Of a DNA stretch of 64,000 nt, positions 2,399-64,000 are shown piece after piece. Every line of letters starts with the position of its first letter. Within the stretch, counting starts at the first letter, position 1. The DNA is from Xestospongia muta. Lineage: Eukaryota > Porifera > Demospongiae > Haplosclerida > Petrosiidae. Below the pieces are notes generated by a model, which was given only the letters and a program-made list of their open reading frames with translations, searched no databases and was not told the origin of the DNA. Location of the stretch: assembly GCA_963693285.1 (NCBI GenBank), contig OY848919.1, forward strand, positions 9,357,461-9,421,460. The letters run 5' to 3'. Position numbers and translations under genes: made by a program.

Positions 2399-2941
2399 TT
2401 TGCGCGTTAAGTACCATTTTCGCATTTATGGTCACATATATTAACAAAATACCTATATCTTAACATAATAGTGTAGAATGACATTATTAAAGCACAAAAA
2501 AACATAACTGTACATACAAGTCATGAAAAGAACATGCAAACCACTTTCACTTAAGCTAACAGTATTTATGATGACATTACCTAGACAGCAAGCTGTGTAA
2601 AGTGGTAATTACATGGGAAAATTTTTACACTTACCGTATGTTGAGTAAACCGAATAACTTGATAGAATTGCAAGAAGGAGGAATGAAGAGAGATGCTGCT
2701 TTTCGGCCATCACTGGTTGCTTCGCTAGCCCATCCCTTTAAGGGAGGGGCTGACACGAGAATCTGTAATATAACGTTATACAGGAAGTAGGCTATAAATG
2801 TTAAGTTCATGAATAATGATAAAATGTAGTTGCTAAGATCATGCCAGAGTAGGAGGCTCTTGCAAGGTAATTCTGTATTTCTTGAGCTAGAATTTAAGAT
2901 AGTGTATTTATATGTAAGGGTTTTGCAGCTAGGTGTATTCA

Positions 2942-2943
<2 letters not shown>

Positions 2944-2976
<33 letters not shown>
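2944..2976. repeat. (TA)n microsatellite
   Basis: Uninterrupted TA dinucleotide tract immediately left of the TIR element beginning near 2993. Confidence 0.9.
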
Positions 2977-2978
<2 letters not shown>

Positions 2979-2992
2979 TACACTACTCAGGT

Positions 2993-3673
2993 GTAATAAG
3001 TCAAGGCATGGCCAGACCCTCGCGTGCCGGAGGGTCAGGAAAACTACGCACACTAAACTTGTTCTGCTGCAAGGGAAGTGACATCATTACTATCACTGAC
3101 ATGGCTGAGATTATAGAAAAAGTAGAGAGGCGCCTTACAGACTTGGGTTTATTCTAAAAGAATAACAGAGGGAAGTAATTTCTGCTTTTGTTAAAGGGAA
3201 TGATGTCTTTGCTGTGCTACCTAATGGATTTGGTAAAACACTATTGATCAGTACTGATAATGCAGTCAACAGCATCGTCAGCATTTTTGTGAGTGCTTGA
3301 CTCCAATCTCTCAAGACCGTATAGTGCTGAGACACAAGAGCAGCACATTCTTCCAACATATCCATCATATAATGACTCAGTAGTCATTAACATCAACATC
3401 AATCTTCAGTTCATCAAATTGTTCTGCTACTACCCTTTTTCAAATTGGCAAGGCTTTTGAGCAGGCATCAGTCAGCATGCTACATCTGTCTGTAGTCCGA
3501 TGAGTGATATCTTTCTGACAGCAATAGCAATACAGTGTCATTTTTAATTTCAAACCGTGCAGTAAACTTGTTGCAGCCCCAGCCGAAGCCATTCAACTCA
3601 GAACAAGTTTAGAGTGCATAGTTTCCTGACCCTCTGGCAAACAAGGGTCAGGCCACGCCTTGACTAAGTGTAA
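2993..3673. mobile_element. Non-autonomous element with about 75-bp terminal inverted repeats
   Basis: The sequence from 2993 (gtaataagtcaaggcatggc) to about 3068 is matched, reverse-complemented, by 3597-3673 with scattered mismatches, so the 0.68-kb segment has long terminal inverted repeats. The interior carries the start of a RecQ-like helicase on the plus strand (3101-3246) and unidentified sequence, including an open minus-strand stretch at 3135-3368. No transposase is visible. The element was therefore either mobilised in trans or is a deletion derivative of a helicase-bearing element. Confidence 0.7.
3101..3246 (+). pseudogene. RecQ-like helicase N-terminal fragment (broken)
   Basis: The ATG at 3101 opens a short helical stretch (MAEIIEKVERRLTDLGLF). 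The frame then shifts by one, carries a TAA where a Glu codon would be expected, and continues as QREVISAFVKGNDVFAVLP followed by NGFGKT. This matches helicase motif 0 (Gln) and the Walker A loop of RecQ-like ATP-dependent DNA helicases, which usually read LPTGxGKS. Nothing of the later helicase motifs follows inside the element. Identification rests on the motif pair; the lesions are one frameshift and one nonsense codon. Confidence 0.6.
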
Positions 3674-4783: not shown

Positions 4784-5420
4784 AGTTTTTTACAGGATTG
4801 ACCATCTGGAATTCTCTGAAAAAAATTCATAATTGACTTTAGCAAACACTGTCCTACGTGTGCTGTTAGCTGTTATTATTGGCTGTTTTAAGAATTCATA
4901 GATAGACCATCAGACTTACTGGCTAGAGCACTGGCATATTTTAATTATAAGCACCATAATACTATCAATTACCTTATTGGTATCACACCCCAAGAAAGTT
5001 TATGCTTCATTTTAAATGGATGGATAGGAAGGGTGAGTGATAAATACATTGCCGAAAATTCTGGACACTTGAACAAAAAACACAAGGTGCTGCCATTTTT
5101 GATGACCACGTTTTCCATATCCTGGACTCTATAGGAATCTACTGTGCTACTGTAACAATACTGACATTTGCAAAGGAAAAAAAAAGCAATTTTCTAGTGT
5201 GGAAGTTGAACAGACACGAGACATCACTAATGTTTGAATTCCTGTAGAACAAGTGATTGGAAACATTTGAAAAAGTATAGATTTCTCAGTACACTTCAGC
5301 CAATTGATTATTTAATATGTAAAGGTGAATTATCTCCAATGCTCGACATAGCAGTAACAGTTACTTGTTGTCTGTGTAATGTTTGTTATTCATTTATCCC
5401 ATTGACTAATAAGAAGTGTT
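4784..5420 (+). pseudogene. Harbinger-type (DDE_Tnp_4) transposase relic
   Basis: Frame-shifted but clear similarity to the DDE nuclease domain of PIF/Harbinger-like transposases. It includes [20 protein letters not shown] with the expected first catalytic Asp, followed by [14 protein letters not shown], then [18 protein letters not shown], a damaged stretch, and the C-terminal part LSTLQPIDYLICK and LCNVCYSFIPL. Several stops and frame changes are present, so it is inactive. The right end abuts the (TAA)n tract at 5433, into which the first RT element is placed. Confidence 0.65.
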
Positions 5421-5432
5421 TGTTAAATAATA

Positions 5433-5472
5433 ATAACATTAATATTAATACTACTACTACTACTACTACTAC

Positions 5473-5509
<37 letters not shown>

Positions 5510-5510
5510 T
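5433..5510. repeat. (AAT/ACT)n microsatellite, 5' flank of RT element 1
   Basis: Imperfect AAT repeats, an ACT stretch, then about 13 perfect AAT units ending four bases before the ATG of RT element 1. Confidence 0.9.
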
Positions 5511-8500
5511 ATGGCGTCTCGGTACTGTAAATGTATGAGCTCTGAGATTTGTGTAGCCTGTTCATGTGCTCGCCAGCATACACCTTGCTAGAAATGTTAT
5601 CCATCAAGGGTTGGCCGTTGTTGGAATTTTCCTCACCATTCAAATACATCTTGGACCTCGTCCATATCCAATAGTGAAGATGATTCTGAAGTTCACGAGG
5701 GAGATCACCATATTGTACTATGTGTCGCCACCGCTCCCTGTTCTCAGCCTTCCTCCATTTTCATTTTATCCCAGCCTTCCTCCGTTTCCATCTCGTCCCA
5801 GCCTGTAATCACTCTCTCTTCTTCACCTCAATCTCCCCAGGTTGTTGAATTACCCTTGTTTCGTCTGTTATCCAATCCTCATTTCCAGTGGAATGCTCTT
5901 TCAGATGATGAATGTGTAGAGTTAGTTAGCCAATGCTACTCAAAAGCAGTTCATTTGATTCCTAATTTGTTTAAGATTCCTTATGGAAAGCAAGGTAAAT
6001 GTTTTTAAAGAGTTAACACGTCCTTTTGTCTCTACTCTGAGGATTCAGTCATGGAGTACATTGCTTTGAAGGCTGCATTTGTATTTCCATTGCTCTTTCT
6101 ATAAAAACCCCACCATAGATCTAAAGCTAAAGAGCATGCCACCGCTCTTGGACGCACCTTGAAATTATGGCAAGATGGTTTATTTGCTGATTTGTTATAT
6201 GAAGGGAACACCATACAGAAGCAGTTTCAGAGCAGTCACCGTTTTATAAAAAAACTTGGTCTTCTAAGTTTGTTCTCACATTTTATGTTTGATGGCAAGG
6301 TCAAAGCTGCTCTACGTGCTCTAAATGAATCTGGTTCCAAGGCAGGTCAGCCTCTCTCTGATTTTGATCCATTCTTGGTACTGTTTGAGACGTTTTATTT
6401 AAAAAACACCCTGATCCCACACCTGTCTCTTCTGCTAACTATTTATTGACTGAGACACCTCCTTCGGATCATGAACCGCATTCTGTCAACTTTGAACAGA
6501 TTCTGATTAGAAGAATGATTTTGTAGATGGATGGTGCTGCTGGCCCATTGGGTTTGGATGTGTTGAGTTGGAAGAGAATGTGTTCATCCTTTCGTAGAGA
6601 GTCTGAAGACCTGTGTGAGTCAATTGGGAGTATTGGAAGGAAACTTTGTGTCGATTGGGAGTATTGGAAGGAAACTTTGTAGAAGCTATGTGGATTCAAC
6701 TGGAATTGAGGCACTAATGGCAAGTAGACTGATAGCATTAAGTAAAGTCCTAGGTGTTTGTCCGATTGGGGTAGACGAAGTATGCCGTAGGTTGATTGGG
6801 AAAGCAGCAATGACTGTAATTCAACAAGATTTTATAGAATTTACTGGGCACCAACAACTGTGTGGTGGTCAAAAGTCGTCATGTGAGGCCATTGTTCACT
6901 GTGTGAGAGAGTTGTATGACTCTGGTGAGATGGAAGAAATTCTCTGTTTTGATGCATCCAATGCATTCAATGCTCTTATAGAGGTTTGGCTCTGTGTAAC
7001 ATACTTCATCTATGCCCCTCCTTTGGACATCTGGTTATTAAAAATTACCAGTCACATAGTTCTCTGTTTATTGATGGTGACTCTATATTGTCTAAGGAGG
7101 GTACTACACAGGGAGACCCTCTGGCTATGTCTATGTTAGTAGTTGCTTCAATTCCACTGATCAGGGAACTAGACAAATTGACGGATGTGATACAGTTAAG
7201 ATGCGCAGATGATGCCACTGAAGAAATGAGTGAGGTAAGGAAATGGTGGGATAATATTAATACACTAGGTAATAGTACTACTAATATACTACTTTCCTAA
7301 TGCGTGTAAGACCATTTTGTTGGTTAGAGAGGAGTTGTATGAGAGAGCATGCAGATATTTCGAAGGGTCAAATCTTATAATTAGGACTGATAGTGTTAAA
7401 CTCTTGGGGTCTCCAATTGGTACTGAAGCATTCATGGAGTCTAACATTAAGAGCAAGTTCAAGAGTTGGAGCGCAGATTTGGATTTGTTGTCTGATATTG
7501 CTAAATCTCAACCACAGGCCGTTTATGCAGCATTTGTACATGGAGTTTATAGTAGATGGACTTATTTTTTTAGGTCTTGCTATGTCCCAGTTGATCATCT
7601 CAATTGTTATGAGGAGAAAATTCGGTTTATTCCAGCGCTATCAGGAAGGAGCTCCATCAATGACCTGAACTGTTTTGATGGGATGGGTCTAATCTATTCT
7701 ACTCAGTATTCCAATAGTCAATATCAGGCTTCCTTAGCAATTACTCGACCTCCCGTTGATTGTATATTGAATGGTGAGAGGGAGCCACTGTACAAAGTAA
7801 TTGTAAGACAGGTGGAGTAAGTTGATGAGCACTCGAGTAAATGAGCAAATGAGTGAAGCTGAGGGCATTATCTGTGAGAGAGAGACTGGATAGTGACCAT
7901 CAGTGGCTAATGGATGTGGCTAGTGAGCGTGGTGCATCTTTTAGGTTATCTGCCTTACCACTTAAGGAGTTCGGGTTCGATCTACATAAAAGCTCATTCT
8001 GAGATGCCATCTGTATTAGATACGGATGGCAACCACCTCAACTCCCCTCAGCCTGTATTTGTGGCAAGACTTTTAACGTAGATCATGCTCTCTCATGTCC
8101 ATATGGTGGATTTTCCACTTTGCAACATAATGAATTACGAGATTTAACAGCTGTTCTGACAAAGGACGTATGCCATAATGTTGCCAGAGATCCGCCACTT
8201 CAACCTTTATCTGAGGAACTGCTGGTGCTGACGGTGCAAAATTAGATTTTGCTGCTGATGGGTTTTGGGGGACTCCAGGTCAGAGAGCTTTTTTCGATAT
8301 TAGGGTGGTTAACCCTTTCTCCAGTACATACTAGAATCTGTCTTTATCATTAGTGTATAAGAGGGTAAAGAAAGAAATGAAGAGAAAATATGACCAGAGA
8401 ATTCGTGAAATAGAGTATGACAGTTTCTCCCCTCTTGTCTCTTCCACTAGTAGTGGCTTGGCTCTCATTTCTTCACTAATATATAAATGTATAGCCACAC

Positions 8501-8680
8501 TTCAGTCGGAAAAGTCATCCAGGTCCTATAACTCAGTCATTAATTACATAAGGTGTAAACTATCATTTTCACTTTTTTCGTTCCACCATCAGGTGTCTTA
8601 GAGGGATAAGGTCCACCTTTCCCCCGAACCACAATGTTGAAATTAATGTTGCTATCTCTGATGGTCACATTCTATCTTAA
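5511..8680 (+). pseudogene. Zn-finger / reverse transcriptase / endonuclease-like ORF (element 1)
   Basis: The N-terminus has a cysteine cluster (CKCMSSEICVACSCARQHTP) with a stop right after it. The RT core near 6700-7300 shows motif A FDASNAFN, the GTTQGDPLAMSM motif and the catalytic CADDAT. A C-terminal part (about 7980-8680) has the CxCG...HALSCP...HNELRD zinc-binding motif and FFDIRVVNPF, the region that in RLE-type elements would hold the endonuclease. The catalytic aspartates are present, but many frameshifts and stops separate the pieces (for example near 5587, 6450, 7300 and 7820). The last codon block ends at a TAA at 8678-8680. The R2/R4-like (restriction-like endonuclease) affiliation is inference. 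Confidence 0.7.
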
Positions 8681-8769
8681 ATTTAATTATATTTTTGTTT
8701 CAGACTTGTCTAATTCTCTTCTATCTTAAATATCAGTGTTGTACTTTATTACTATTGTGTACAGTGTGC
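5511..8769 (+). mobile_element. Non-LTR-type RT element 1 in a TAA microsatellite
   Basis: A plus-strand retroelement copy whose open frame begins at the first codon after the left (AAT)n tract. Its 3' end runs directly into another (AAT)n tract at 8770. No long terminal repeats are visible. Together with elements 2 and 3 it suggests that the microsatellite is the insertion site or the element tail. The copy is inactive. Confidence 0.7.
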
Positions 8770-8873
8770 AAATAATAATAATAATATTATTATTGTCTAA
8801 CTTGCAAAAAAAATAATAATGATAATAATAATATTATAATAATAATGATAATTTTTATTTTTATTTTTAATAC

Positions 8874-8909
<36 letters not shown>

Positions 8910-8930
8910 GTAATAATAACAACAACAATA
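8770..8930. repeat. (AAT)n microsatellite between elements 1 and 2
   Basis: Two AAT tracts with a short AT-rich interruption. It serves as the 3' flank of both element 1 (plus) and element 2 (minus), which are tail to tail here. Confidence 0.9.
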
Positions 8931-8997
8931 ATTATTTAGTAGCAAGAATAATGGATGGAGTCAAAGGATATAGAAGAAAAATTAAGATGAAATAATA

Positions 8998-11900
8998 TTA
9001 GAAAGATAATTGACTTTCAGCTGCCTGAAGGTCAAAAGGGGAGTCCAAAACTGGTTGAGAGAGCGAGGATCTTGCTCCTCCAATACACATGATGGAGGAT
9101 CTCAAAAGTGCATAGCTAATGCAACATCTAATCAGTCTCATTGACATACAAAAAACAAAATGCTTCTTCTCTGCCAACATAGAGGCAATTCGTTTACAAA
9201 ATGTAGTAGCAACCTTATCCAACCCTCCGGAAGAAGAGAAAATCAATGGAGTAAATGATGAATGCTCAACTTCCCTTACACGTTGCTCATATTGACGGAT
9301 TTTATCTAATTCGTGTCTCCTATAGACAGCATCCAAAGGTGTTTGCAGATTTAACAGAGCAAAAGGGTTGAACACTTGTATATCAAAGTAGTTTCTTTTA
9401 AATCTACCACCCCAAATGCCGTCAGCAGCAATATACAAATAAGCATTAGCGTATGTGTTGGCAGTGAGCAGATTCATATGTTCTCCGGAGATTCATATGT
9501 TCTCCAGAGAGAGGCATACTTTAGATAGTAGAGAGGCAATAATATCTCTGACTTCGTTGTGGCGGATTGATGGAAAACCTCCTTTTGGGCAAGACAGGGC
9601 ATGTTCAGCACCAAACTTGTTGCCACAAACACAATGGAAGGTGGTATCTGGGATAGTCCAGTCGTAACGCAAGTATAGGGCATCTTGAAAAGCCTGCTTA
9701 TGTAAACTGAAGCCATGTGACTCCAAAGGTAAAGGTGACAGCCAGATAGAAGCTCTTTTTTCTCTTGAGAGGTCCATATTATGTTGAAGTGAAGGAGCCA
9801 CTTGAGATCTCAGGTCATTAGCCTGTTCCACTTGCATCTTTAATCTCTCTAATAACAAATTAGATTTAGTCTCACGTTGCTCTTCCAAGCATGACATAGG
9901 ATGGAACTCAATGTCAGGAGAAAAAAATTGATCAAGGGTGAACAAATTGACACAGAAATAGAGTAATGATCAGCTAGCAAGTGAGTTGGGTTGACCAAGC
10001 CCAACCCATCCAGGTGTATAGGTAAGGCGAAAAGCCTTCAATCAAGATCACCAACCTGATTAGAGGCTGTCAGAGCTGAAATAAATCTTGACCGAATAAC
10101 AATCTCCAATGGAGCAAAACTCTGCGAGCCAGCCGAGAGACAACAGAAATCAATAACACGAGAGAAAAAAGTCCACTTAGCTGAAACGCCATGAATAAAG
10201 GTGGCATAAGCAGCCTGAGGTTCTGACTCAGCGATAAAACTAAACTTCTTTACTTCCTCTGACCAGATCTTAACCTTCTTCTCTATGACTTTTTCCAGAA
10301 ATGAGCCAGAACCAATGACACCACCAAGATACTCAACATCTTCTGAGACAACATTGACATTAGTTCCAGAAAAATAGACTCAGCTGATTGGAGGGAGTCA
10401 GAATTTACTAATAAATGGATTTTTGAACTATTTGAAAAGTAGCCATATTGAGGACCTATCTCACAAAGCCTGTCCCATCACCTCCTGAGATCACACAGGT
10501 TGCCTCCAGCTGTGGAGTCATCAGCGCACCATAATTGATAGGATGCAAGACCTTCTAGGTGACAAATCAGAGGTTTGGTTCCAATTGCATACATTGCCAT
10601 TCCTAGAGGATCACCTTGAATGGTTCCTTCCTGAGAAGATAGAACTGACTATTAACATGTAAGAAGGCAGGAGACTTGTATGTATTAATCAGAATTGGTG
10701 CAAGACCAGGACAGACAGATCGGACAATTCTAAGAGTGACAGCACAATTCAAGCTGTTGAAAGCATTGGAGGCGTCTACAAAAAGTGAGGCTTCATTAGT
10801 GTCAAATACACTAGACATGCAGTGAACTGAGGACTCATAATCAGAGTCAAAACCAGTACAAAACTGATGAAGGCCAACAGCATGCTGAAGGTCCTGTTTA
10901 ATGTTCCTCATGACTGCCTTTCCAATGATACGACGGCAGACCTCCACCACTCCAATAGGATGAAGTCCAAGGTCTTTGTCTAAGGGAATCAAACGGCAGG
11001 AGGTGAATGCTGACAAACCAGCTGGATCAACATAGCTGGTTCATATCTTTCTACCAAAAGCTGCAATGGATCTACACAGATGGATTGACTTCTACCATAA
11101 TACGAACACCAATAATGCCAAGACAAAGCATCAGCACCAGAAAGCCCAGCAGAGTTATTCGTGTGAAGAGCAGCAAAGCGAATTTTTTCTTCATTGGGAG
11201 CTTCAAAGATTGAGTAGGGAAAATAATTCTCAGGTGGTTCATTCATGAGTGCATCTGGGTGGGGTGAATGACTTTTTGGATGCTTGTCTTTCAAAAGCTG
11301 TAGGAGAGTTCTACAGCTCCATCAGGGATAATCTCGTTCGGATCTAGAACATCTTTCTGATTGACAGAAGAGAGAAGACGAATTACATCTCTCTCTTTGC
11401 CTTTTGAGTAATTGGGCAAAGATGTGAGCAAGATTAAAGTCACATTTATGTCTACGAGAAGGAAGGACAGGTGATGTTGAATAGACTGACCCTCCTTGAG
11501 AAGCTTAAGAATACCTTCACAACTGTTCCAAAGAGGTAATTAACGTTCCAAACATCGAAGGTGGTCTTTAAGCTAGGATTTTGAAAAATGTTTTTTAAGA
11601 ATGAGAGCTGGAAAAAGCATGGCTCCTTTGATAGCATAGCTCTCAATAGCAGAATCACTTGCATAAGCATCAAACAAGTCTGCCAGTTTCTGAACAAATA
11701 GAGTGGCTGAATTGCCAAGAGATTACTCCGCTAGTACACAATCTGGTCATAAACAAACTCAACAGCAGAGTGAAAGTCCGGAGGAGAGGAAGTAGCAGGT
11801 AGCAGGGTGATTGAATAGGTCTGAAGACCAGTAAATCCGAAGAGACGAGGGCCACGTGGTTAGTAGGATCAAAATGGCTGCCATCCACAGTGAAATGGGG

Positions 11901-12082
11901 AAGCCAAGTATCACTTGGAACGGAGAATTAGATGAGTCCAAGCATGCTTCAGAGGAAGAATGGTCATTGCTAGCTGGAGATGTATTGAAACAAGAATTAC
12001 TATGAGAGGGAAGACAATTATGACAGTTTTTATTGCTCAAAACACATGAACAATGAACACACTTGCCACTATGGCAACACAA
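8998..12082 (-). pseudogene. Zn-finger / reverse transcriptase / endonuclease-like ORF (element 2)
   Basis: Reading leftwards from 12082: a cysteine cluster (CCHSGKCVHCSC, then CHNCLPS) without a preceding ATG; a damaged linker; RT motif A FVDASNAFNSL near 10770; QGDPLGMAMYAIG and the catalytic WCADDST near 10540-10610; then HCVCGNKFGAEHALSCPKGG and SIRHNEVRD near 9500-9620; then GIWGGRFKRNYFDIQVFNPF and a long helical C-terminus ending at a stop at 8998-9000. Frames change repeatedly. One break is caused by a 19-bp tandem duplication at 9471-9508. Inactive. Confidence 0.7.
9471..9508. repeat. 19-bp tandem duplication inside element 2
   Basis: gattcatatgttctccgga (9471-9489) is followed at once by the same 19 bases with one change. 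This shifts the frame between the zinc-finger part and the endonuclease-like part. Confidence 0.85.
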
Positions 12083-12124
12083 ACAATAATAATAAAAAAT
12101 AATAATAATAATAATAATAATAAT
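12083..12124. repeat. (AAT)n tract between head-to-head elements 2 and 3
   Basis: About 42 bases of AAT repeat separate the 5' ends of two oppositely oriented RT elements. It ends directly at the ATG of element 3 (12125). Confidence 0.9.
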
Positions 12125-15100
12125 ATGGCAGTTCAGAGTCAGAGCCAGAGATGCTGTGTGCGCAATGGACCTAAAGGTATCTATTGTAATTGCTCTTGTG
12201 CTAAGAAGAGCTCCAAACGCTTCTCCTGCCGTCCTAGGGCTTGGAATGCCTGTCTTAACACAATCAGGACCACGTCCATCGCTTCACAATCAATAGGCAC
12301 ATCAGTGAGTCAGCCATGTGATGTTACAACATCCGAGCTACCACCTTCTCTGCCTGAGCCACCTCTCTCTGCCCTAGACCCTGTCTCTCTTGTTTCCCCG
12401 GCTCTCCAGAATACCTCACCTGAGAGTACTGATATAGATAAACTTATGATGAGAGCCTTTGGGGCCACATTATGTCCCACCACAGTCCCTGACATCTCAG
12501 CTAATGATTGGGTTAGATGGTGGCATGCCATTGCACATCTAAAAGGCAGACTGGAGGATCAGTTGGTCATAAGTATGTTGATTTGTTGACTATTGAGACC
12601 TCTCATTTAGCAGCTGGAAACTATCCTTTTGAGAGACTTATAGTCTTTTCAGCTGTAATACTTCAACATAATCATATGGTATGAAAGCGGAAGGATATTA
12701 GAAGAGTGTTAGAGAGACATTTGACTATGTAGACTAATGATGAGTTTGACTATCTTGTTGGAGAAGCAGTGAAATGTGACAAGTCTATTAGAACACAGAC
12801 TCCTAGGGTTGATGACAGTCACCTAGTAACTGCTTTTACGAGATTGATGCTTCAAGGAAAAGTCAGAGCAGCCATGCGGTGGCTGTCAGAGCAATCAAAA
12901 GAAAAGGTCGTGCCATCTCATTACACAGTCGAGGTGAAGGACCAAAATGGTTCGTCATTTACTATGTCTGTTTTAGACGTTCTGAAACAGAAGCATTCTG
13001 CTCCACATTGCCCTCCAGACGTTACTCTACTAAAATGTGAGTCACTTCCACTTCGTTTGGACCTTGAGGTTACTGGGGCGCATATCCACCATGCTGCTTC
13101 ATACACACAAAGAAGTTCTAGTCCAAGTGGTACTGATGCATGTCATTGGCAAGATGTCCTGCTTTGATATGGTGCCCACAGTGAGCACCTTCATGACTCT
13201 ATTGCAACATTAATATGTCGTCTTCCCAACTCGGTCACCCCATGAGATGACATTCAAGCCCTCGTGGCTTGTCAGTTAGTGGCACTTGATAAGTGCCCTG
13301 GAGTCAGGCCTATTGGCATTGGTGAAACATTGAGGAGAATTGCCGGCAAGACAGTCTTGCTAGCAAGATGTGATTTAGAAGATATTTATGGTACCTCACA
13401 GCTCTGCGGTGGTGTGCGTTCTGGTATTGACGGTGCTATCCATACTGTATGTGATCTTTTCGATGAACACCAGGAGGAAGGGTGGGGTGTTCTTCTCATT
13501 GATGCTTCTAACGCCTTTAACAATATCAATCGTCAGGCAGTTCTTTGGAATTTTCGTGTACTGTGGCCTAGTTGTTCATTGTTTTTGTTCAACACTTACA
13601 GGGGCTGGGCCCCGCTCATTGTTGTCGATGCTAATGAGTTACTGTATAGTAGAGATGGGGTCACTCAAGGGGACCCACTTTCCATGTATATATACACTGT
13701 GGCCACTCTGCCTTTGATTTCACACATTGGAAGACCTAATGTTGGAACTGACATTTGGTACGGGGACGATGCCTCTACTTGTGCACCCCTCCATGAATTG
13801 GTGGACAGGTTTACTATGCTGCTTCGACTTGGTCCATTATATGGCTATTATCCAGAACCCAAGAAATGTGTACTTATAGTTTATCATGACCATTTTACTA
13901 CTGCTTCTGAATTGTTCAAGCCATTTGGAGTGAACATTACAAATAAGTCATAGATTGTTAGGCAGTGCCATTGGCTGTGTTGACGGGGTTAATGCTTATA
14001 TTGAGAAGTGTGTGACCGACTGGGTTTCCCTCATTAAGAAATTGGTTTTAGTTGCTGAATCACAACCCCAATTTGCTTACTCTGCCCTCACTAGGTCTAT
14101 TCAATCCAAATGGGCATACCTACTGAGAGTATCACCTGACTGTGCCCGTTATTCGACACATTGGAGAGTACTATTTCTGGTCAACTATTGCCAGCTATAC
14201 TAGGAAGTGAGGTGTCCTTTTCCAAGAGGGTGATGTTCTCACTACCCACTCAAATGGGAGGTCTCAATGTCCTCGATCCAACTGTCACTTCCTGTGCTAA
14301 CTACACCACATCTAGGAGGCTAACTGGTTCTATTGTTAAACCATTGAAGCAGATCAGCAGTTTTGACTATGATGAGTTTCACAGTCACTATGTTGAAGTT
14401 CAGGAATCAATTACTAATGAGAGAGAGGTCAATTTGGAGAGGATATTTGAGGACATCTTTACGAAACTTACCTTTAGTCAACAGAGAGCTATCTTGAGGG
14501 CTAAAGATGAAAAGATATCATCATGGCTTAACGTTATTCCAGTGGGTAAGCACCACTTTAATCTCTCTGCCCAGGAGTTCAGGGATGCTCTTGCACTAAG
14601 ATATAAAAAACCTTTGTTTTGTTCCTTCCACCTGTGATGGCTGTGGAGCTCCCTTTGACCTCTCTCACACTCTTGTTTGTAGAAAAGGTGGACTTGTTAC
14701 TCAGCGACACAATGAGATTTGTGACGCTTTTGGCGACCTCTCTTCATTGGCTTGGAGTCAAGTCATCAGGAGCCTATGGTAAAAAAAGCCAATCCTCTAT
14801 CTGGGAGTCCGACTTTGGTAGCTGAACTTTCTGTTCGTGGTGTCTGGGTCCTGATATTAGGATCATATATACTGACGCCTGGTCTTATCTGGACCGACCA
14901 CTGCTTGATGTTTTCTCAGCTGCTGAGTCTGAGAAGAAGAAATTCCATCAGGCATGTTCTGATAGTAGGGCTCTCTTCACACCATTATGTATTTCTGTTG
15001 ATGGCTTGCTAGGAAGAGAGGCTGCAGTATTTGTTAAACGTATTGCTGAAAGATTATCATCAAATTGGGACCACAATTATTCTTAAGTTCTTGGTTGGAT

Positions 15101-27435: not shown

Positions 27436-28001
27436 CTAAAACCGGAGATAATTACCATTAACGAATAATTCACACAAACTGTTATTATAAACTAATACAT
27501 TCTGAATTTGTTGTATACCATATTCAGTAATATTAGGACAGTTAGTGAGGTATAATACTTTTAATGTCTTATTGTTTATAACAATATCACAGATTTGAGG
27601 CACATCCTTGTCAGTGATGTTATCATCACCATACAAGTACAATGACTTGATTGTATTGTTACTACTGAGAGTGGTAGTTAGTAAATGATATGTATCTGGT
27701 AAAAGAGGGGAGGAAACAAGCTGTAGGTACTCAATTGTTTTGCTAGAAGTTACTACTTGTACTAGTTCACTGACACAGTCACTGTCAAAAGGAGTGTTTA
27801 CTATATCAAGTCCAATTACTAGACATTCATTGATATCAGATAATACTGTTAGTAAACTATCAGGAAATAATAAGTTCAGTTTAATACTCCATGTTGTGTG
27901 TTGTCGTTTCTTTAATTGATGTATCACTTCTTTGCATTCTGCCACAGTAGGTGAAGTAAGTGTAACACTATCGCTAGTCCATTTAACACTTTCAGTGTCT
28001 A
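27436..28001 (-). CDS. LRR exon of the X-DD-Y-coiled-coil-LRR gene
   Basis: The exon is entered after an acceptor (ttgtag) at 28001 in the phase left by the previous exon. It has a consensus-like donor at 27455-27450 (gtaatt) or, if unspliced, a stop at 27436. It encodes about 182 residues with ribonuclease-inhibitor-type leucine-rich repeats of 27-29 residues (TIEYLQLVSSPLLPDTYHLL, TIKSLYLYGDDNITDKDVP, TLKVLYLTNCPNITEYGIQQ, NSLCELFVNGN). Such repeats form the ligand-sensing arc in NLR proteins. No further LRR exon was found to the left, so the arc is short or truncated. It follows the coiled-coil exons in the same phase. Confidence 0.65.
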
Positions 28002-28952
28002 CTACAATAAAACAATAGATATTTTATATATTTTATACACTTAACAACAGCTATACACACATTAATATGTTCAACTACAATTATAGTTGCTTAAAGAATA
28101 AGAAGATACCATTACTGTGTTAGGTTACTATAAAAACATAATTTAAGCAGATAATGAGCTAGTTAGGATAAAGTACATCAATTGAGTCAAAGTTACTGAA
28201 ACTGGCACACAGAGCATTGAGTTGTTAAACAGCTGTCAGTAAACTATGTCTTGCATCACAAGATACTAAGTTGATTTACAAGCAATGTACACTAACATTA
28301 TGTAACAAAATGTTTGTGAAATGCTGTGTGTTTTGTTTTTGTAATTTATTTCTCTTTGTAGATTAAATTTCATTTTCATAACTTTATTTGCCATAGTAAT
28401 CTAGTCAGTGTTATTACCAAAATTTAAATATCATACTTTACAAATGCCATGATTTAACAAAATGTAGTATTATGGTATGATACGAAAATATATGTTGTAC
28501 TATCTATAATACATACACATTTGAATCAAACATTGAATATTATAAAGTATGTAATAAAGGTGACATCATTTTAATATGTCAGGACACTGAATATATATGA
28601 TGTGACTATAGAACTAAGTTAAAATAATAGTCTTCAAATTGTATTCAGATACTTGATTGCTTTATCCTTTAGGAAGTAATTACTTATATTGCTGGAGGTA
28701 GCTGTATGCACTGATATTAAAATAACTACTTTTGAAAAGTAAATTTCTGCTATCAAATATTTCTCAGTAAAGTAACTACTAAGATTTATTCATGTTTTGT
28801 GGAATAAATTTCACATGTAGTTGCTGAGCATGAATTCGAAGGAAGATATATCACAATTTCTACATGTGTGCTGTATTCTAGTATACACTTACCATGGAGT
28901 ATATAATTTAATTGCATCCATTATAATGTCTAAAGTTATGATGTCAACTTAC
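28002..28952. other. Intron of the LRR gene
   Basis: AT-rich intron between the last coiled-coil exon and the LRR exon (minus strand). No additional exon recognised. Confidence 0.4.
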
Positions 28953-33404: not shown

Positions 33405-33884
33405 TTAATTTAATGTATCAATAACAATTTCTAGTTGTATTTCTAATAATGTTTGGACTTCAATTTTGGTTATTAAGCAGAAATTAATCTTATTTATGCC
33501 AACAATACATATTAGAGTTGAAACATCTACTAATGACATCACCAGTGACATACTGTATTGAAGATCTAATGTTGATAGACTTGCCACCAGATTCCTACCA
33601 GCAATTGCTGCTGGTCCTCCAAGATCTTCAAGAATTCTAACAAGGCATTCACAGTGTGTCTGTACTTCCTCTGCAGTATTCCTCAACTTCAATCCTGTTG
33701 TAAATGAATTAGCTATGTCAGCAAATTTCTCGCCTCTCATAACGGACGCGGTTATAAGACTAGCGGCAAATGCTTCCTCACTAAACTTTGTCATACATCC
33801 TCGTAGAGCTGAACTGAGGTCAGCATATTGAGAATTAAAGGTATTGATAATGGCTTTCTTATAACTTTCGAGTAAATCATCCAT
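33405..33884 (-). CDS. Module X first exon of the X-DD-Y-coiled-coil-LRR gene
   Basis: The ATG at 33884-33882 starts MDDLLESYKKAIINTFNSQY and continues ADLSSALRGCMTKFSEEAFA, ASLITASV, FTTGLKLRNTAEEVQTHCEC, LVRILEDLGGPAAIAGRNLV. It is a helix-rich domain of about 110 residues with the module X landmarks L-I-(S/T), H-C and G-G-P...A...L. It resembles Death-fold domains in size and helix pattern, but I cannot assign it to a named family. The true donor is uncertain, and the open frame runs on to 33405. An NRF1-type palindrome lies 68 bp upstream of the ATG, which supports this start. Joining it to the Death domain exon at 31904 is inferred from module order in the 54.7-62.3 kb gene, where the order is Death domain then X. 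Confidence 0.55.
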   Translation of the reverse strand: MDDLLESYKKAIINTFNSQYADLSSALRGCMTKFSEEAFAASLITASVMRGEKFADIANSFTTGLKLRNTAEEVQTHCECLVRILEDLGGPAAIAGRNLVASLSTLDLQYSMSLVMSLVDVSTLICIVGINKINFCLITKIEVQTLLEIQLEIVIDTLN

Positions 33885-33951
33885 TTGTCAAGAAGAAAGG
33901 TGGAGCTTGTAAAAATTAATATGAACGCCGTACCATAGGCTAAATACTGTT

Positions 33952-54692: not shown

Positions 54693-57600
54693 TCAATTAC
54701 TAGTGACAACATATATTTCATTAGTTTCTGTCTTGTTGTCTTGTTTTGGTTTATTTTTGCTGTATTGCTTTACACTGATATCTTTAAATCTATGAGTAGG
54801 GTTTAAGATAGATAGAGTGAGTGAACTAAGTATAGATGAGATGTCGGACATCGACAATCGTAATCTCTTTTCTTTTGTCTTCTTATCGAGAGTTTTTAAA
54901 TCTTCATAAATTATTGAATGTTTTAATTCAGTGGTTAATTGAAAAGGAGTAGCTGAAGCTTTTTCCTTGTCAGACATTAGTAATGATGACTTCAATTCTA
55001 TCTCCTGTAATTGTGATGCTGTCTGACCTCCATATTGAGTTAATAGCTGGCTAATGGCTTCTAGTTCAAGTACATTAGCATCATCTAATGCTGTGTTCTT
55101 GTTAACAACAATGTTAGGATTAGCACCATTCTTTAGGAGTGTTTCTACTACTGAAATGGATTTGCTTCCTCTTACAGCAAAGAACAAAGGAGTCAAACAC
55201 CAATAACTTTCTTGTTTATTGACATCAGCTCTAGCAAGTATGAGAGCATCTACTATATCAACATGTCCACAAGATGAAGCTACCATGAGTGGAGTAAGAC
55301 CAAGTACAAGTGGAGTATCTGGACTGACTAATGTCTTCATTACAACTGTACCTAAATCTCCTTTAACACATGAATCTAATAATTCTCTCTGGTCATTAGT
55401 GAGGTGTGAAAGTTTCCTTGAGAGGAAGGTAACGAGAGTTGGATGACCACCATAACATGACTTAACAACTGATTTTTCGATCTCATCAGAAGTTGGTTTA
55501 ACTTTATCTAAAAGCATGTCAACAAGGTCTATGTTACCACCAAAAGCAGCTAGTGAAAATGCTGTTGATCCATTGTGCAGTGACAAATGGGGATTTGCTT
55601 GCGATTTAAGTAAAGTTTGAACTACTTTAACATTTTTATAACAACAAGCTAGCATTAGAGCAGTCCATCCATCTTCATTCTGAGTATTAGTGTCAGCATG
55701 TTCTTTGAGTAGTAGTTCAACAACCTGGTGATGACCATTTAGACTAGCTAACATTAGAGCAGTCCATCCACCTTTTCCTTGGTGATTAATGTTTGTGTGC
55801 TTTTTGAGTAAAAGTTCAACGATCTGGGTAAGGCCATGATAACTAGCTAGCATTAGGGCAGGTTCCCCATCTTGTTTCTGAGTATGAATGTCGACATGTT
55901 CTTTGAGAAGGAGTTCAATGACTTGGTGATGACCATTTTGACTAGCTAGCATTAGAGCAGTCGCTCTATTTTCTTTCTGAATATTAATATCATATTCTTT
56001 GAGTAGTAGTTTTATGACTTGGTGATGACCATTTTGACTAGCTAGAATTAGAGCAGTCACTCCATCTTTTCCATGCAGATTAATATCAGCATGCTCTTTA
56101 AGTAATAGTTCAACAACTTCGTGATGACCATTTTCACTAGCTAGCATTAAAGCAGTCCATCCATCTACTTCCTGAGTATTAATCTCAACATGTTCTTTGA
56201 GTAGTAGCTCAATGACCTGGTGATGACCAGTTTCACTAGCTAGCATTAGAGCAGTCAGTCCATTTTTTGCCTGGAGATTAATGTCTGCATGCTCTTTGAG
56301 TAGTAGTTCAATGACATGATGATAACCATTTTGACTTGCTAACATTAGGGCAGTCACTCCATTTTTTTTCTGACTATTAACGTCAGCACGTTCTCTGAGT
56401 AATAGTTCAGTGACCTGGTGATGACCATTTTGACAAGCTAACATTAGGGCAGTTGCTCCATTTTCTTTCTGAGAATTAATGTTGGCATGTTCTTGGAGTA
56501 GTCGTTCAATGACCTGGTAATGACCATTTTGACTAGCTAGCATTAGAGCAGTCACTCCATTTTTCGCCTGGTGATTAATGTCAGCATGTTCTTTGAGTAG
56601 TAATTCAATGACTTGGTGATGACCATTTTGACTAGCTAGCATTAGAGCAGTCACTCCATTTTTTCCCTGGTGATTAATTTCTGCATGTTTTTTGAGCAAT
56701 AGTTCTACAACAAGGTGATGACCATTTTGACTAGCTAGCATTAGGGCAGTCCATCCAATTTCTTCCTGAGTATTAATGTTGGCATGCTCTTTGAGTAATT
56801 GTTCAACAATTTGGGTGTGACCATTTTGACTGGCTAGCATTAGAGCAGTCAGTCCACTTTTTGTCTGGAGGTTAATGTCAGCATGTTCTTTGAGTAGTAT
56901 TTCAACAACCTGATAATGACCATTTTCACAAGCTGCCATTAAAGCAGTCCCTCCATTTTCTTTTTGAGTATTAATGTAAGCATGTTCTTTTAGTAGTAGC
57001 TCAATGACATGGTGATGACCATTTTGACTAGCTAGCATTAGAGCAGTCATTCCATTTTTATCTTGAATATTGATATCTATATGTTTATTAAATAGGAGCT
57101 TAATAGCATCAATATTGCCATATCTGGCAGCTTCATGAATATTGCTATCAGCATAAAGGCTTATATCAAGCTCCATTAGAAAGGATGCTAACATATCATC
57201 TTCAGCCTTTATAGAATTTTCAAGGGCATGCCTGAAGCTAAAACTATGGTTGTAATCTTCTATTAAAATAAGTTGATCACCAATATAAACTTCATAAACA
57301 CCAACCTGATACACGAACTCTCTTTTCTCTACTGCATTGACTATAAGACAGTCTAACTGAGACTTGGAAACTACAAACTTACAGACACAAGCTGATTCTT
57401 CCTCCTCAATTATTATGTGATTCAAAATAGAACTTGCATTAGGAAATACGTAATTGAGAAATTTGTGTAAATGGGCTACATTTTTCTGCTGCCATTGTTC
57501 ATGAAACTTGATGAACATTGTACATCTCCTTGTTGTAGTAACTTGTGGTTGAAGTAATGGTATGTGTTTCATAGCCTGTCCAAAGAGCTGTAGCTGAGTA

Positions 57601-59674
57601 CTTTCTTCAAAAGCCTTAACCATGCTAATGTAATGTTGTAAATTATTTTGAAGTTTGCCTACAATAAACTTGTCCACTATTTTCTTTAGTAGGTCTACAT
57701 TTAGGAAATAGCAATGAGGTTGAATAGCATTGGAGAGTTGGTCTATGTTGTCAACCTTTAACTCATTATCCCCAAGATAATGATGAAGAAATTCTATGAC
57801 ATCAACAAAAAGAACACTTCCTTCCAGTATTAGTTCCTGAAGACTTGATAGAGTTGTTGTTTTGAGAACCGTAAAGCTATCACTAATTTTTAAAAGTTGT
57901 TCAAGTACCTCTTCCTTCTTTTTCTTAGTCTTCACAACATTATACTGTTGTAACAATTTACAGATATCCTCTCTTTTTTCTTCTCTTGCTTTAGCAGCAA
58001 TACTCTGGCCATTAATGGAGACATTAGATATAGCACCAGCTGTCAGTAGTAGTTCTATAACTTGAGATGACTTGTGTCCTGTTATAGCATATACTAGTGG
58101 ACTGTACCCATCACTGTCTGTACTATTGACATTAGCTCCTGATTGTAACAGTACTTGTACAGTCTCTTTATGTCCACAAGCTGAGGCTATCATAAGAGGA
58201 GTGATACCATTGACTAGTGTACAATTTACATTCACATTGGTGTTGTAAATATGGCTTTCTGTGAAATCATTATCTCCTTTGGCACATGAAACAAAAATTT
58301 GGAATTCTTCTGGTGTAAAAAATTCAAATAGCTTTACTAATGAGCTGATAATAAGTTGAGAGTGTCCATAATGACATGCTGTAGTGAGGACTGATGTTAC
58401 TGCACTTGTTTTCTGGCTCTCTGCTAGATGTTCAAGTAATACTTCAATTATCTCCATAGAATTTTGTCGTGTAGCTACAGTGAGTGCTGTATCATCATTT
58501 CTACTAGTAATAAGTTGATCAGCATTAAATTGAAGCAATAACTTAACGATCTTAAAGTGAATATTTTGACATGCTATTATAATAGCTGTGTAACCATCAT
58601 CTTTTTGTATATTAGGATTTGCCCCAGTTTGGAGTAGATAGTTGACTATAGCGTAGGAGTTTGTATCACATGCTAGCATCAATGCAGTGTAGCCAGTGTT
58701 ATTTTGAATGTTAGGATTAGCTTCAGCTAATATTAATGTTTGTACAACTTGTTCATACCCTCCTTTGCTAGCTAGCATTAGTGCTGTACAACCCTCTTCA
58801 TTTTGATAATTGATGTTATCAATTAAGTTAAGCAAGAATTGAACAGCTTCATCATCACCAAGTCTTGAAGCCTCTAGTAATGCTTGGTCAAAAGAAAATT
58901 GTTTTTGTTCTTCTTCTTTCAAGATAGCTTGACCATTGATAATAAGTTCAAAGATACCAATGAGTGATGCAAATTCTTTCTTTATAGTAACAATTTCCAA
59001 GATATAGTCTAACTTTGATTGAGGTACAAGTAGAGTAACATATACTGACCCTTCCTCCACTCGTATATGAGTCATTCTCTGATGAAACATGTGATTTACA
59101 AGTGTTTTAAAGTTCTCCAACGTTTTCTTCCCCCATTGATGATTAAGTTTGATAACCACTTCACAAGTAATAGATGTGACTTCTGGATTTGGTATCAATG
59201 CTTCTTCAACTGCATTCTTGAATTTGTTAAGTGTTGTTGATTGTTTAAATTCTTCAAGCTGTTGTTTGTAAGTCTGCATATCCCTGTGCAACTTTTCTTC
59301 CATAATAAAGTCTTCATTTATTATATTTTTTACAATAACATCTAACACTTCAACATCGAGGTAGCTGTAATGAGGCCAAAGGACTTCATAAAGTTTGTGG
59401 ATATCTGTAGTATCTGTTAGCCCTTTTACTCGGAAATACTCTCCAAGATAACTTGCAATATCAATGAATGTACGTGTTCTGCTTTCAATTAATTTGTTGA
59501 GAGCCTGCTTAGTATTTTCAACTAATTTTACAAACTTATTGTACAGACTATTCAATTTTTCAGCTACAGGATCATCTGGAATGACTGTTATTTTTTGGAG
59601 TTGTCTATTCACTGAGAAGAAATCAAAACGTGAAGATTTATCTTCTTGTTTTGCTGTTTCCTCAATCTTATCAC
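54693..59674 (-). CDS. Giant exon: module Y, ankyrins, module Y, ankyrins (2A-DD-X-Y-ANK gene)
   Basis: The exon starts at 59674 after an acceptor (aacaag) in phase with the preceding exon and is open for about 4.98 kb to a stop at 54693-54695. In order: linker (EETAKQEDKSSRFDFFSVNR); first module Y (KLYEVLWPHYSYLDVEVLDV, IVKNI, KLHRDMQTYKQQLEEFK, then a beta-rich part VVIKLNHQWGKKTLENFKTL and EGSVYVTLLVPQSKLDYILE); about eight degenerate ankyrin repeats (GCTALMLASKGGYEQVVQTL, GYTALMLACDTNSYAIVNYL); second module Y (IQPHCYFLNVDLLKKIVDKF, MFIKFHEQWQQKNVAHLHKF); and about 20 ankyrins, of which roughly 14 are almost identical (TALMLASQNGHHQVIELLLK). The basic C-terminus ends at TSN. No nonsense or frameshift. 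Ankyrins bind proteins or other ligands. Together with exons to the right the protein is about 2,013 residues. Confidence 0.85.
55655..57090 (-). repeat. 99-bp coding tandem array (ankyrin repeats)
   Basis: About 14 head-to-tail 99-bp units, each encoding one 33-residue ankyrin repeat, with unusually high DNA similarity (for example tgatgaccattttgactagc recurs). One unit is a codon short (KEYDINIQKE instead of KEHADINIQKE). The homogeneity implies recent unequal exchange or gene conversion. Confidence 0.9.
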
Positions 59675-59727: not shown

Positions 59728-59787
59728 CTGCAAAACTATTAGCTATCTTTGATGAGTCCAGTTTAGCTTTATTTGTGTAATGAGAAC
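59728..59787 (-). CDS. 60-nt linker exon of the 2A-DD-X-Y-ANK gene
   Basis: Bounded by acceptor ttttatag and donor gtaagg. Encodes GSHYTNKAKLDSSKIANSFA in the phase (1) required by both neighbours. Joins module X to the giant exon. Confidence 0.65.
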
Positions 59788-61039: not shown

Positions 61040-61519
61040 CTTGTTGTTTAATTTCTTGTTCATAACATGTAAGATCTAGTAAAATATCACACTCTTTTTT
61101 CACTTCCTCTATCCAGTCTTGACATAACTTTTGAGCAGCTAATTCAGTTGGACCACCTTCACTAGAGAGGCACTGTAAGAAAAGTTGGCAATGTTCCTGC
61201 AACTTTGGAATATTGCTTGCTAATCTCATTCCACTTTCAAATTCATCGATCAGTTTGTCAATAGCTGGAGACTTTCTCACAGATTCACTTATCAGCCTTT
61301 TAGAATACATTGTTGCAGAAATTTGTGGTAAACATCTACTTAATTGGTTACTTAAGTCAGCAAAATGACTTGTCAGAACACCTTTCAACACTTTACGAAC
61401 TTCATCACATTCTGTAGTACTAGTACCTTCAATGTCCCCATATACAGATTTATCACAGGAAGAAAAAGTTTGGCCTTTAATCTGGTCACTTTGGCCTTCT
61501 TTCTGTCTTTCTGTTTGCC
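61040..61519 (-). CDS. Module X exon of the 2A-DD-X-Y-ANK gene
   Basis: Exon with acceptor ttaag at 61519 and donor gttagt below 61040. A polar linker (GQTERQKEGQSDQIKGQTFS) precedes module X: VRKVLKGVLTSHFADLSNQL, MYSKRLISESVRKSPAIDKL, IDEFESGMRLASNIPKLQEH, CQLFLQCLSSEGGPTELAAQ, KLCQDWIEEVKKECDILLDL. The landmarks L-I-S, H-C, G-G-P and the closing D-W are shared with units B and C and with the 33.9-kb gene. The helix-only composition and length of about 110 residues suggest a Death-fold relative; the family is not recognised. Confidence 0.7.
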
Positions 61520-61750: not shown

Positions 61751-62041
61751 CTTCATTTTTAATATCTAGCTGTCTTTTCATTGTAGTAGCTACATCCTTA
61801 TCACCACAATTCTCAACAGCTGAAATGAGTTCTTCCCAACAGGGGACAGTGCCATTTGTGATCCACCATTGTAAACCTTCTTCTAAAGCAAAGTGATAGT
61901 CCTGATCATTGGTCGCCATTTTCTTAAGCCTTCTCCTCTCCTCCAGTGACACACCTAGAAGACTAGTGAGTTTTGTCCATTTATCTTCAACAATAAAACC
62001 GCTCTTAACAAGAAGTCGTAGAGCATTATTTGATGTCAACT
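61751..62041 (-). CDS. Death domain exon of the 2A-DD-X-Y-ANK gene
   Basis: Acceptor cttcaatag at 62041 and donor gtatct at 61750. Encodes ELTSNNALRLLVKSGFIVED, then KWTKLTSLLGVSLEERRRLK, QDYHFALEEGLQWWITNG, CWEELISAVENCGDKDVATT and MKRQL, a complete Death domain of about 90 residues with the conserved Trp near helix 1, the W-W of helix 4 and the C-terminal A-x-x-(L/M) helix. Its first residues follow the 2A motif by only two residues, so the released downstream product would begin with Pro-Lys-Thr and then the Death domain. Confidence 0.75.
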
Positions 62042-62097
62042 CTATTGAAGTATTTGAAACATCATCCCATCATTTATATGTTTTAATATTTACTTAC

Positions 62098-62326
62098 CAG
62101 TTTTAGGTCCAGGGTTGAGTTCAACATCACCTGATAAAATTAATAAAAGTATGAGAAACAAAGCCAGAGAGAATATCAAACTACTACCACCCTCATCTCC
62201 TGGCGTCAGTAGTAACTTGAACCATCCAGGTGTATCAGTGGTAGAATGAGTCGTTTTAGAAGTATATGGTATCTGATGACAATACCATAACCCAATAGCA
62301 GCTCTCCATTGAGTGATATCAATCAT
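62098..62326 (-). CDS. First exon: hydrophobic leader ending in a 2A StopGo motif
   Basis: The ATG at 62326-62324 begins MIDITQWRAAIGLWYCHQIP. A polar middle follows, then the hydrophobic run SSLIFSLALFLILLLILSG, leading directly into DVELNPGP and a donor gtaagt two codons later. D-V/I-E-x-N-P-G-P is the invariant 2A signature that makes the ribosome skip the Gly-Pro bond. The hydrophobic run could act as a signal or membrane segment when skipping fails. In sea urchin NLR genes such N-terminal 2A leaders are known to give dual targeting. The longer in-frame start at 62332 is GTG, so the ATG is preferred. Confidence 0.8.
62105..62128 (-). promoter_or_regulatory. 2A ribosome-skipping site (DVELNPGP)
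   Basis: Codons for Asp-Val-Glu-Leu-Asn-Pro-Gly-Pro. Skipping is expected between the Gly codon (62108-62110) and the final Pro codon (62105-62107). Upstream context LLLILSG resembles known active 2A peptides. Confidence 0.85.
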
Positions 62327-63239: not shown

Positions 63240-64000
63240 ATGTGGACCAAGGTGAGGATGGAACAAGCATTGAAAGCAATTACTATGAATGGCATAAGTG
63301 TCAGGAAGGCAGGAGCCAAATGTAATATTCCTAAGAGTACCATTTATGATAGGCTGTGTGGGAAAGTGCTCCCTGGTGTTGTCTGTGGAGCTCCAAAATA
63401 TTTATCTAACTCTAAAGAGGAAGAATTAGTATCATTTTTAGTTGGATGTGCTCAAATAGGATTTGGAAAAACTCGTAGTGGTGTGATTTTGCTAGTTGAA
63501 AAGTTGTTAAGCAGTTGTGAAGTCGAGAAAGAGATGCCAAGTGGGTGATGGGATATTTTTTGTTGAAGGCATCCAAATACTACTTTAAGAACCCCAGCTT
63601 CATTATTAAAATCTAGAGCTATAGTTACTAATGAAGAAGTGATTGATCAATATTTCAATATATTGGAAGAAGCTCTCAAAAAATAATTTATTAGATAAAC
63701 CTTGTCAGATATACAATTTAAATGAAACTGCTATACATTTAGATCCTAAGCTACTTAAAATAGTGTCACATTGTGGTGAGAAAAACACAGAGATCCATTG
63801 TAAATATTAAAAAAGAACAAATAACTATTGTTGCGGGTGAGAGTACAAGTGGTAGTTACTTACCACCAATGAGAATATGGACACAAAAAGTTTGGACTCT
63901 GAGCAAACTATTGGTGAAGTACCAGAGACAATGCACAGTTTTTCCACAAAAGGATGGATGGACATGTAACTGTTCAAATTTGGGTTCTTGTAACATTTCT
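63240..64000 (+). pseudogene. Pogo-like transposase, decayed and cut by the window edge
   Basis: 63240-63548 is open and encodes a psq-type and CENP-B-type DNA-binding region (MEQALKAITMNGISVRKAGA, IPKSTIYDRLCGKV, EEELVSFLVGCAQIGFGKTR). After frame changes the DDE domain follows: ITLRTPASLLKSRAI-like sequence near 63580, YNLNETAIHLDPKLLKIVSH near 63715, VNIKKEQITIVAGES with GSYLPPMRIW near 63805, and GEVPETMHSFSTKGWMDM near 63915. The first catalytic residue of the pogo DDE core (normally N-x-D-E) is Asn here, and several stops are present, so it is inactive. It continues beyond 64000. Confidence 0.7.

Follow-up and report, generated by a model that had tools for sequence, protein, structure and literature searches.

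A multi-copy, putative N-terminal StopGo leader, probably maintained by selection, opens a Death-domain/ankyrin gene in the sponge Xestospongia muta

N-terminal StopGo leaders on immune genes are already known from sea-urchin NLRs. In Strongylocentrotus purpuratus, NLRs bear 26-residue N-terminal 2A signal leaders, for which recoding of approximately 80% in vitro, together with dual localisation, has been reported (Roulston et al. 2016, PMC4981915). Several changes to hydrophobic residues near the motif reduced recoding, and the accessible portion of that report mentions no function for the released leader peptide. In the available sections of Li et al. 2026 (PMC12846837), the StopGo classes include those whose upstream motif is L-rich, closes with (A/S/C)G and is combined with D at p12. 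Separation ranged from about 93 to nearly 100% for the motif classes assayed there (1, 3, 4 and 6), motif 6 being active, and among cellular genes StopGo is said to be rare. PMC2978324 reports that, in some translocated proteins, the 2A reaction is inhibited by the sequence immediately preceding the 2A.

The gene described here lies on the minus strand of a 64,000-nucleotide stretch of the Xestospongia muta genome, referred to below as the window (contig OY848919.1, positions 9,357,461 to 9,421,460). Exon 1 (62326-62098) comprises a 74-codon putative StopGo leader followed by two codons and one base, and ends in a phase-1 donor. The frame from the ATG at 62326 reads MIDITQWRAAIGLWYCHQIPYTSKTTHSTTDTPGWFKLLLTPGDEGGSSLIFSLALFLILLLILSG-DVELNPGP-KT. 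Residues 1-16 (62279..62326) form a conserved N-terminal segment with the family pattern MIDxxQWRxxIGLWxC, derived from an alignment of 26 leaders. A hydrophobic run, LIFSLALFLILLLILSG, occupies residues 50-66 (62129..62179) and is the Kyte-Doolittle peak of the leader (2.90, 17-residue window). It adjoins the octapeptide DVELNPGP at residues 67-74 (62105..62128), which conforms in frame to the StopGo core (D/G/C/N)(V/I)ExNPGP. Seven residues, 67-73, separate the run from the predicted skip at the G73/P74 bond. A preliminary description of this DNA had reported a hydrophobic run and a perfect 2A signature in the first exon, and both were confirmed. Just upstream of the leader, an ORF on the plus strand (63240-63548) resembles a transposase-type helix-turn-helix by eye.

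The same description had likened the leader to those of the urchin NLRs, and the comparison was upheld against the accessible text of PMC4981915. As in the urchin, an N-terminal hydrophobic stretch stands directly before D(V/I)ExNPGP, the genes appear to be of the Death/NACHT immune type and there are many copies. However, the urchin leaders, compared by description only, have 26 residues, whereas the leader here has 74, with a conserved N-terminus, an exon of its own and a phase-1 donor. Also unlike the urchin case, it is found on a NACHT-less ankyrin gene and upstream of COR-A, CHAT and GBP exons. The viral L-rich StopGo sequences (motifs 2 and 6 in the available sections of PMC12846837) share with it an LLLLSG-like hexapeptide, D at p12 and the canonical octapeptide; in the window leader, the end of the hydrophobic run, LLLILSG, precedes the D and was assigned to this upstream class by eye. 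In contrast to the viral sequences, the leaders described here, which are putative StopGo elements, are N-terminal first exons of animal genes, not parts of a polyprotein.

The donor of exon 1 is AAAACTG/GTAAGT, its last exon base being 62098. A predicted GT-AG intron of 56 nucleotides (62042..62097) leads to the acceptor TTCAATAG/AGTTGACA, with exon 2 starting at 62041. The predicted spliced product reads NPGP-K-T-E-L-T-S, in which two codons after NPGP are followed by a split codon; the splice to the Death exon two codons after the 2A, as originally proposed, was thus borne out by the gene model. In 50 of 54 leaders, the donor GT stands at a distance of exactly 7 nucleotides from the end of NPGP. 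Furthermore, among 12 loci, all picked for having a Death exon, a GT-AG intron of 48-185 nucleotides with the spliced frame KTELTS or near it was recovered in 11, the exception being L004. It was considered that the leader exon might not be joined to the Death exon at all and might, for example, form a small transcript of its own or be a first exon that goes unused. In favour of this, read-through past the donor meets a stop after two further codons. However, the donor and acceptor with a single frame across the join in 11 of the 12 loci tried, and the spacing of 58-75 nucleotides between the 2A and the Death match in 58 of 66 intact copies (among the best 81 of 115 matches), make this very unlikely.

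The gene model, built from splice sites and frame, has five exons with every intron in phase 1 and encodes a complete protein of 2013 residues. Exon 2 (61751..62041, minus), flanked by phase-1 introns, is the Death-domain exon. The Pfam match to Death (PF00531) has E=0.0017 and 18.9 bits, below the cut-off of 22.6; the paralogous exon in L014 is barely over it at 23.2 bits, and those in L015 (17.6 bits) and L045 (19.5 bits) are under it. The predicted fold consists of six helices with a pLDDT of 78. Its top seven PDB matches are all death domains, namely Fas-FADD complexes, FADD, another death-domain complex and p84, with TM scores by query of 0.65-0.77 and Foldseek E values of 0.02-0.09, none reaching E<=0.001. 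By this model, window exon 2 is predicted to fold like a Death domain. Exon 3 (61040..61519, minus) encodes a domain designated X, which has no confident Pfam match and has relatives in L049 and L054. Exon 4 (59728..59787, minus) is a 20-codon linker placed by splice sites and frame only. Exon 5 (54693..59674, minus), supported by the ORF, Pfam and the gene model, encodes a domain designated Y and then ankyrin repeats up to the stop. The Pfam scan of exons 2, 3 and 5 gave no NACHT at E<=1, in agreement with the NACHT-less host gene of the preliminary description. The Death fold, and the closely related leader-Death units upstream of NACHT exons elsewhere in the genome, resemble animal NLR/Death proteins. 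Unlike animal NLRs, the window gene was found without a NACHT, and its C-terminus is made of X, Y and ankyrin repeats. Domain Y (58920-59603, minus), which separates X from the ankyrin repeats, matches no Pfam family; L050 contains a relative (26%), and the AlphaFold model of Y is of low confidence (pLDDT 63). A relative of domain X occurs in another window gene (33405-33887, minus; 27% over 91 residues), which also carries an LRR-like stretch, seen by eye, at 27436-28023.

The abundance of the 2A signature was determined by DNA pattern searches of the 158-Mb genome. DVExNPGP occurred at 66 sites and DIExNPGP at 84, against none for either reversed pattern, and a looser 2A pattern occurred at 158 sites against one for its control. 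The number of 2A sites in the genome therefore exceeds chance. A search with a blended 74-residue leader gave 190 candidates, of which 150 were scored. At least 128 of these matches were stop-free, and the exact octapeptide was present in all 122 stop-free matches that reach residue 74, a few of which span just part of the leader. Exon 1 of the window gene is one copy of a multi-copy leader family. The preliminary description had proposed looking for the same leader in other genes of this genome; the outcome, with at least 122 leaders carrying the exact octapeptide and the Death-exon result described below, was strongly positive.

The remaining six stop-free matches were L073, L077-L079, L092 and the frame-shifted L093. 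The first five are full-length, in-frame leaders without NPGP. In L073 and L077-L079, which form one cluster at C1:14.53-14.58 Mb, NPGP is changed to NPAT or NPIN with the frame kept, and all four stand before Death matches containing stops. L092 falls outside this pattern of decay because there is no Death match close by. The N-terminal leader motif, searched as DNA, gave 169 sites against 9 in the control. Of 100 listed sites, 18 had a stop inside the motif and 58 of the other 82 had a 2A site downstream. Eighteen of the 24 stop-free sites lacking a 2A were inspected; four were the in-frame leaders L073 and L077-L079, and the others appear broken or unrelated. Of 151 listed 2A sites, 29 lay outside leader matches and were retroelement-like sites or diverged or broken leaders. 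A tandem array at C14:5105797-5215603 contains eight decayed leader copies with stops, approximately 2.2-2.5 kb upstream of intact leaders. Additionally, the leader of L009 (C1:562596-570606) belongs to a diverged class, MVDISIWRARIGLFN...AGDVEVNPGP, with TPR and CHAT exons downstream; its four database relatives have all kept the 2A.

The association was also approached from the Death exon, which as sole query, blind to the leader, gave 115 matches genome-wide. The best 81 were compared with a list of 2A sites restricted to the contigs concerned, and 66 of them were intact, meaning that they had no stop, an identity of 60% or more and a length of 80 residues or more. Among these 66 intact copies (from the best 81 of 115), a perfect 2A site lay on the same strand less than 300 nucleotides upstream in 60 and less than 3 kb upstream in 64. 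Death matches with stops had a 2A site upstream in three of nine cases within the same best 81; intact sites lie within 300 nucleotides at C1:14584866 and C6:7179936, and at 922 nucleotides from the weak match C12:3407948. The notion that the 2A occurs only in intact genes was dropped, since intact sites also precede Death matches containing stops.

Selection on the leader was evaluated with 53 distinct leaders that the motif pattern had picked up; the pairs are not independent, and the pN/pS values are ranges over divergence classes. The ratio was lowest in SGDVExNPGP (0.06-0.15), a stretch for which leaders picked by motif are biased. The first 14 residues gave 0.26-0.31 and the hydrophobic run 0.28-0.35, compared with 0.66-0.91 in the variable middle. 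The N-terminal 14 residues thus appear to be under purifying selection. These values bear on whether the leader is an ordinary signal anchor with an inactive NPGP remnant, the proteins being membrane-bound Death, NLR or ankyrin proteins. The hydropathy of the run would suit an anchor, and NLR transmembrane domains are reported in the accessible part of a Dysidea avara paper, which credits Amphimedon queenslandica with the first report of membrane-bound NLRs. However, the octapeptide is retained at 122 of 122 leader ends (150 of 190 candidates scored), stands near 60 of 66 intact Death copies (best 81 of 115) and shows stronger constraint than any other part of the leader, in a sample biased by motif picking; the signal-anchor explanation is therefore unlikely. 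As to the earlier suggestion of a secretory or membrane-directing leader, the apparent constraint on the 14 N-terminal residues does not suggest a bare signal sequence. Taken together, these sequence comparisons make it probable that exon 1 is a selectively maintained leader that separates by StopGo.

Most likely, StopGo would release a small hydrophobic leader peptide and a cytosolic Death-domain protein, with a minority of the product remaining tethered. During synthesis of the leader, the L-rich stretch together with DVELNPG in the exit tunnel would block formation of the G73-P74 bond. The leader would then be set free as a 73-residue peptide with its hydrophobic segment near the C-terminus, and translation would restart at the proline to give a Death-domain/X/Y/ankyrin protein without a signal. 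Where the bond does form, the run would emerge as a signal anchor and the same protein would be tethered or secreted. Given the length of the exit tunnel, the hydrophobic run, which stops only seven residues short of the reaction point, should still be within the ribosome when G73 is reached. Targeting factors would not have acted by the time of the decision, so that the ribosome and the sequence of the leader, and not those factors, would determine the split ratio. Transcription, splicing, skipping, localisation and the fate of both products are, in this scheme, inferred.

The anatomy of the gene as given in the preliminary description holds up. Its two-output reading with dual targeting goes beyond the evidence, and the tethered form may be minor, as the StopGo classes assayed in the available part of PMC12846837 are highly efficient (about 93 to nearly 100% separation in reticulocyte lysate). 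That a tethered fraction is put to biological use is possible, though somewhat doubtful. A variant of the same core reading, comparably plausible though short of probable, holds that StopGo is essentially complete; the leader would then work as a small membrane peptide, and tethered product would be negligible. The efficiency of the assayed classes is in line with complete StopGo, as is the conservation of the 14 N-terminal residues, which a bare signal seemingly does not need. However, the urchin leaders, of similar logic, yield both products at about 80% recoding in vitro (accessible portion of PMC4981915), and the hydrophobic run is conserved too, although this is compatible with both alternatives. 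Constraint on the N-terminus suggests that the released peptide may matter in itself, and a function for this peptide is plausible.

To characterize the genes that follow the leaders, Pfam was run on 74 of 80 ORFs of at least 75 residues in 17 leader loci of approximately 8 kb, covering about 6 kb downstream; one L021 ORF was covered in a pooled scan only. At E<=0.01, the ORF counts were Death 8, GBP 2, NACHT 2, COR-A 2, CARD 2 and CHAT 1. Death was located in L014, L015, L018-L020 and L027, NACHT in L011 and L014, CHAT in L009 and GBP in L024. COR-A was above the cut-off in L017 and below it in L015, and CARD was under its cut-off of 23.9 in both L014 (23.4 bits) and L018 (19.5 bits). No confident domain was found within about 6 kb downstream in seven of the 17 loci (L016, L021-L023, L025, L026 and L028), GBP matches lying at or just past the edge of the retrieved stretch for L022 and L023. 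Matches to ACDC, Presenilin, XisI, Med28, Serine_rich and similar families were below the cut-off and were discarded. In L050, ankyrin repeats follow the leader-Death pair. Except for the leader-to-Death connection, we infer from strand and distance that these domains belong to one gene with the leader.

The association with NACHT was analyzed using 98 NACHT hits and 171 leader or 2A positions. A leader or 2A site lay less than 8 kb upstream on the same strand for 48 of the 98, compared with three in a strand-flipped control. On the same strand, 19 of the 98 had such a site downstream, which tandem arrays would lead one to expect. A tree was built from 40 of the 98 hits; one clade held 17 of its 20 leader-bearing NLRs, together with one leaderless NLR, and three fell elsewhere. 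The supported branches demand at least two changes, and long branches make the tree rough; a single gain of the leader by one NLR ancestor is unsupported on it.

The window Death exon is 92% identical to that of L015 and 81% to that of L014, so that one leader-Death pair has apparently been joined to several kinds of C-terminus. Leader exon and Death exon, with phase-1 introns around the latter, may move as a cassette before varied C-terminal modules. A broader and tentative extension, which we regard as rather unlikely in full, is that this shuffled cassette serves as a common N-terminal module for much of the innate-immune repertoire (NLR, ankyrin, ROCO-like, CHAT and GBP), each gene giving a conserved and functional 73-residue membrane peptide, a cytosolic sensor and a tethered fraction in a ratio governed by the state of the ribosome. 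If this were true, translational stress could retune many immune genes together in an early-branching animal.

A profile of the leader matched 638 proteins of a protein database at E<=0.01, 120 of which were listed. The octapeptide was retained in 121 of the 124 database leader proteins examined. Of these 124, 73 were less than 90% identical to any of 53 leaders from this genome and can be further paralogs, alleles or proteins of other species. NPGP joined to the start of the Death domain was found in none of the 124 with the one pattern used, in a database apparently composed of unspliced ORF calls. Likewise, a spliced 906-residue query from the window protein matched nothing in it at E<=0.001, perhaps because it holds ORF calls without introns. 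No confirmed relative was found in collections of viral and prokaryotic contigs.

As far as searched, the features that appear new are that the leader is long and conserved and has an exon to itself, that NACHT-less and NACHT genes share it, and that it occurs in so many copies. No earlier description of these features was found in the literature listings and passages searched; one may exist, for instance in the eukaryotic 2A catalogue of Rao et al. (2025) or in the work on sponge NLRs by Yuen et al. (2014). More than one hundred stop-free leaders with the exact octapeptide in one animal genome, with apparent constraint and on several gene types, point to broad cellular use of a ribosome-skipping trick mostly known from viruses. 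The family offers a natural system for studying the purpose of incomplete skipping and any role of the released leader, and it raises the question of whether the location of numerous immune-type proteins depends on a single recoding step. Gene annotation could easily miss such leaders or label them as transmembrane segments.

Another possibility considered was that the leader derives from a 2A-bearing non-LTR retrotransposon of this genome, having been inserted recently and carried along passively since. APE-type elements of this kind (Odon et al. 2013, as cited by others) resemble the leader in having an L-rich run and D(V/I)ExNPGP near the N-terminus. Such retroelements do coexist with the leader genes: in the retroelement-like L010 (C1:10508043-10516053; ORFs 4917-6227 and 2884-3654, minus), one ORF carries LLLLLLLLCGDVEVNPGP and a PHD finger (6e-11), and another carries a reverse transcriptase, RVT_1 (8e-20). 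Unlike the leader genes, L010 runs from its 2A into the PHD finger with the reverse transcriptase downstream, and has neither the MIDxxQWR segment nor a splice to Death, whereas the window leader is followed by Death and ankyrin domains and not by endonuclease or reverse transcriptase. Moreover, the leader is under constraint, its splice junction is conserved, and its N-terminal pattern was not found in the retroelement-like sites L002, L006, L007, L010, L012, L013 or L047. A recent, passive insertion is thus highly improbable; a remote common origin of the 2A stretch is conceivable. Within the window itself, several ORFs at 6567-14637 resemble reverse-transcriptase fragments by eye.
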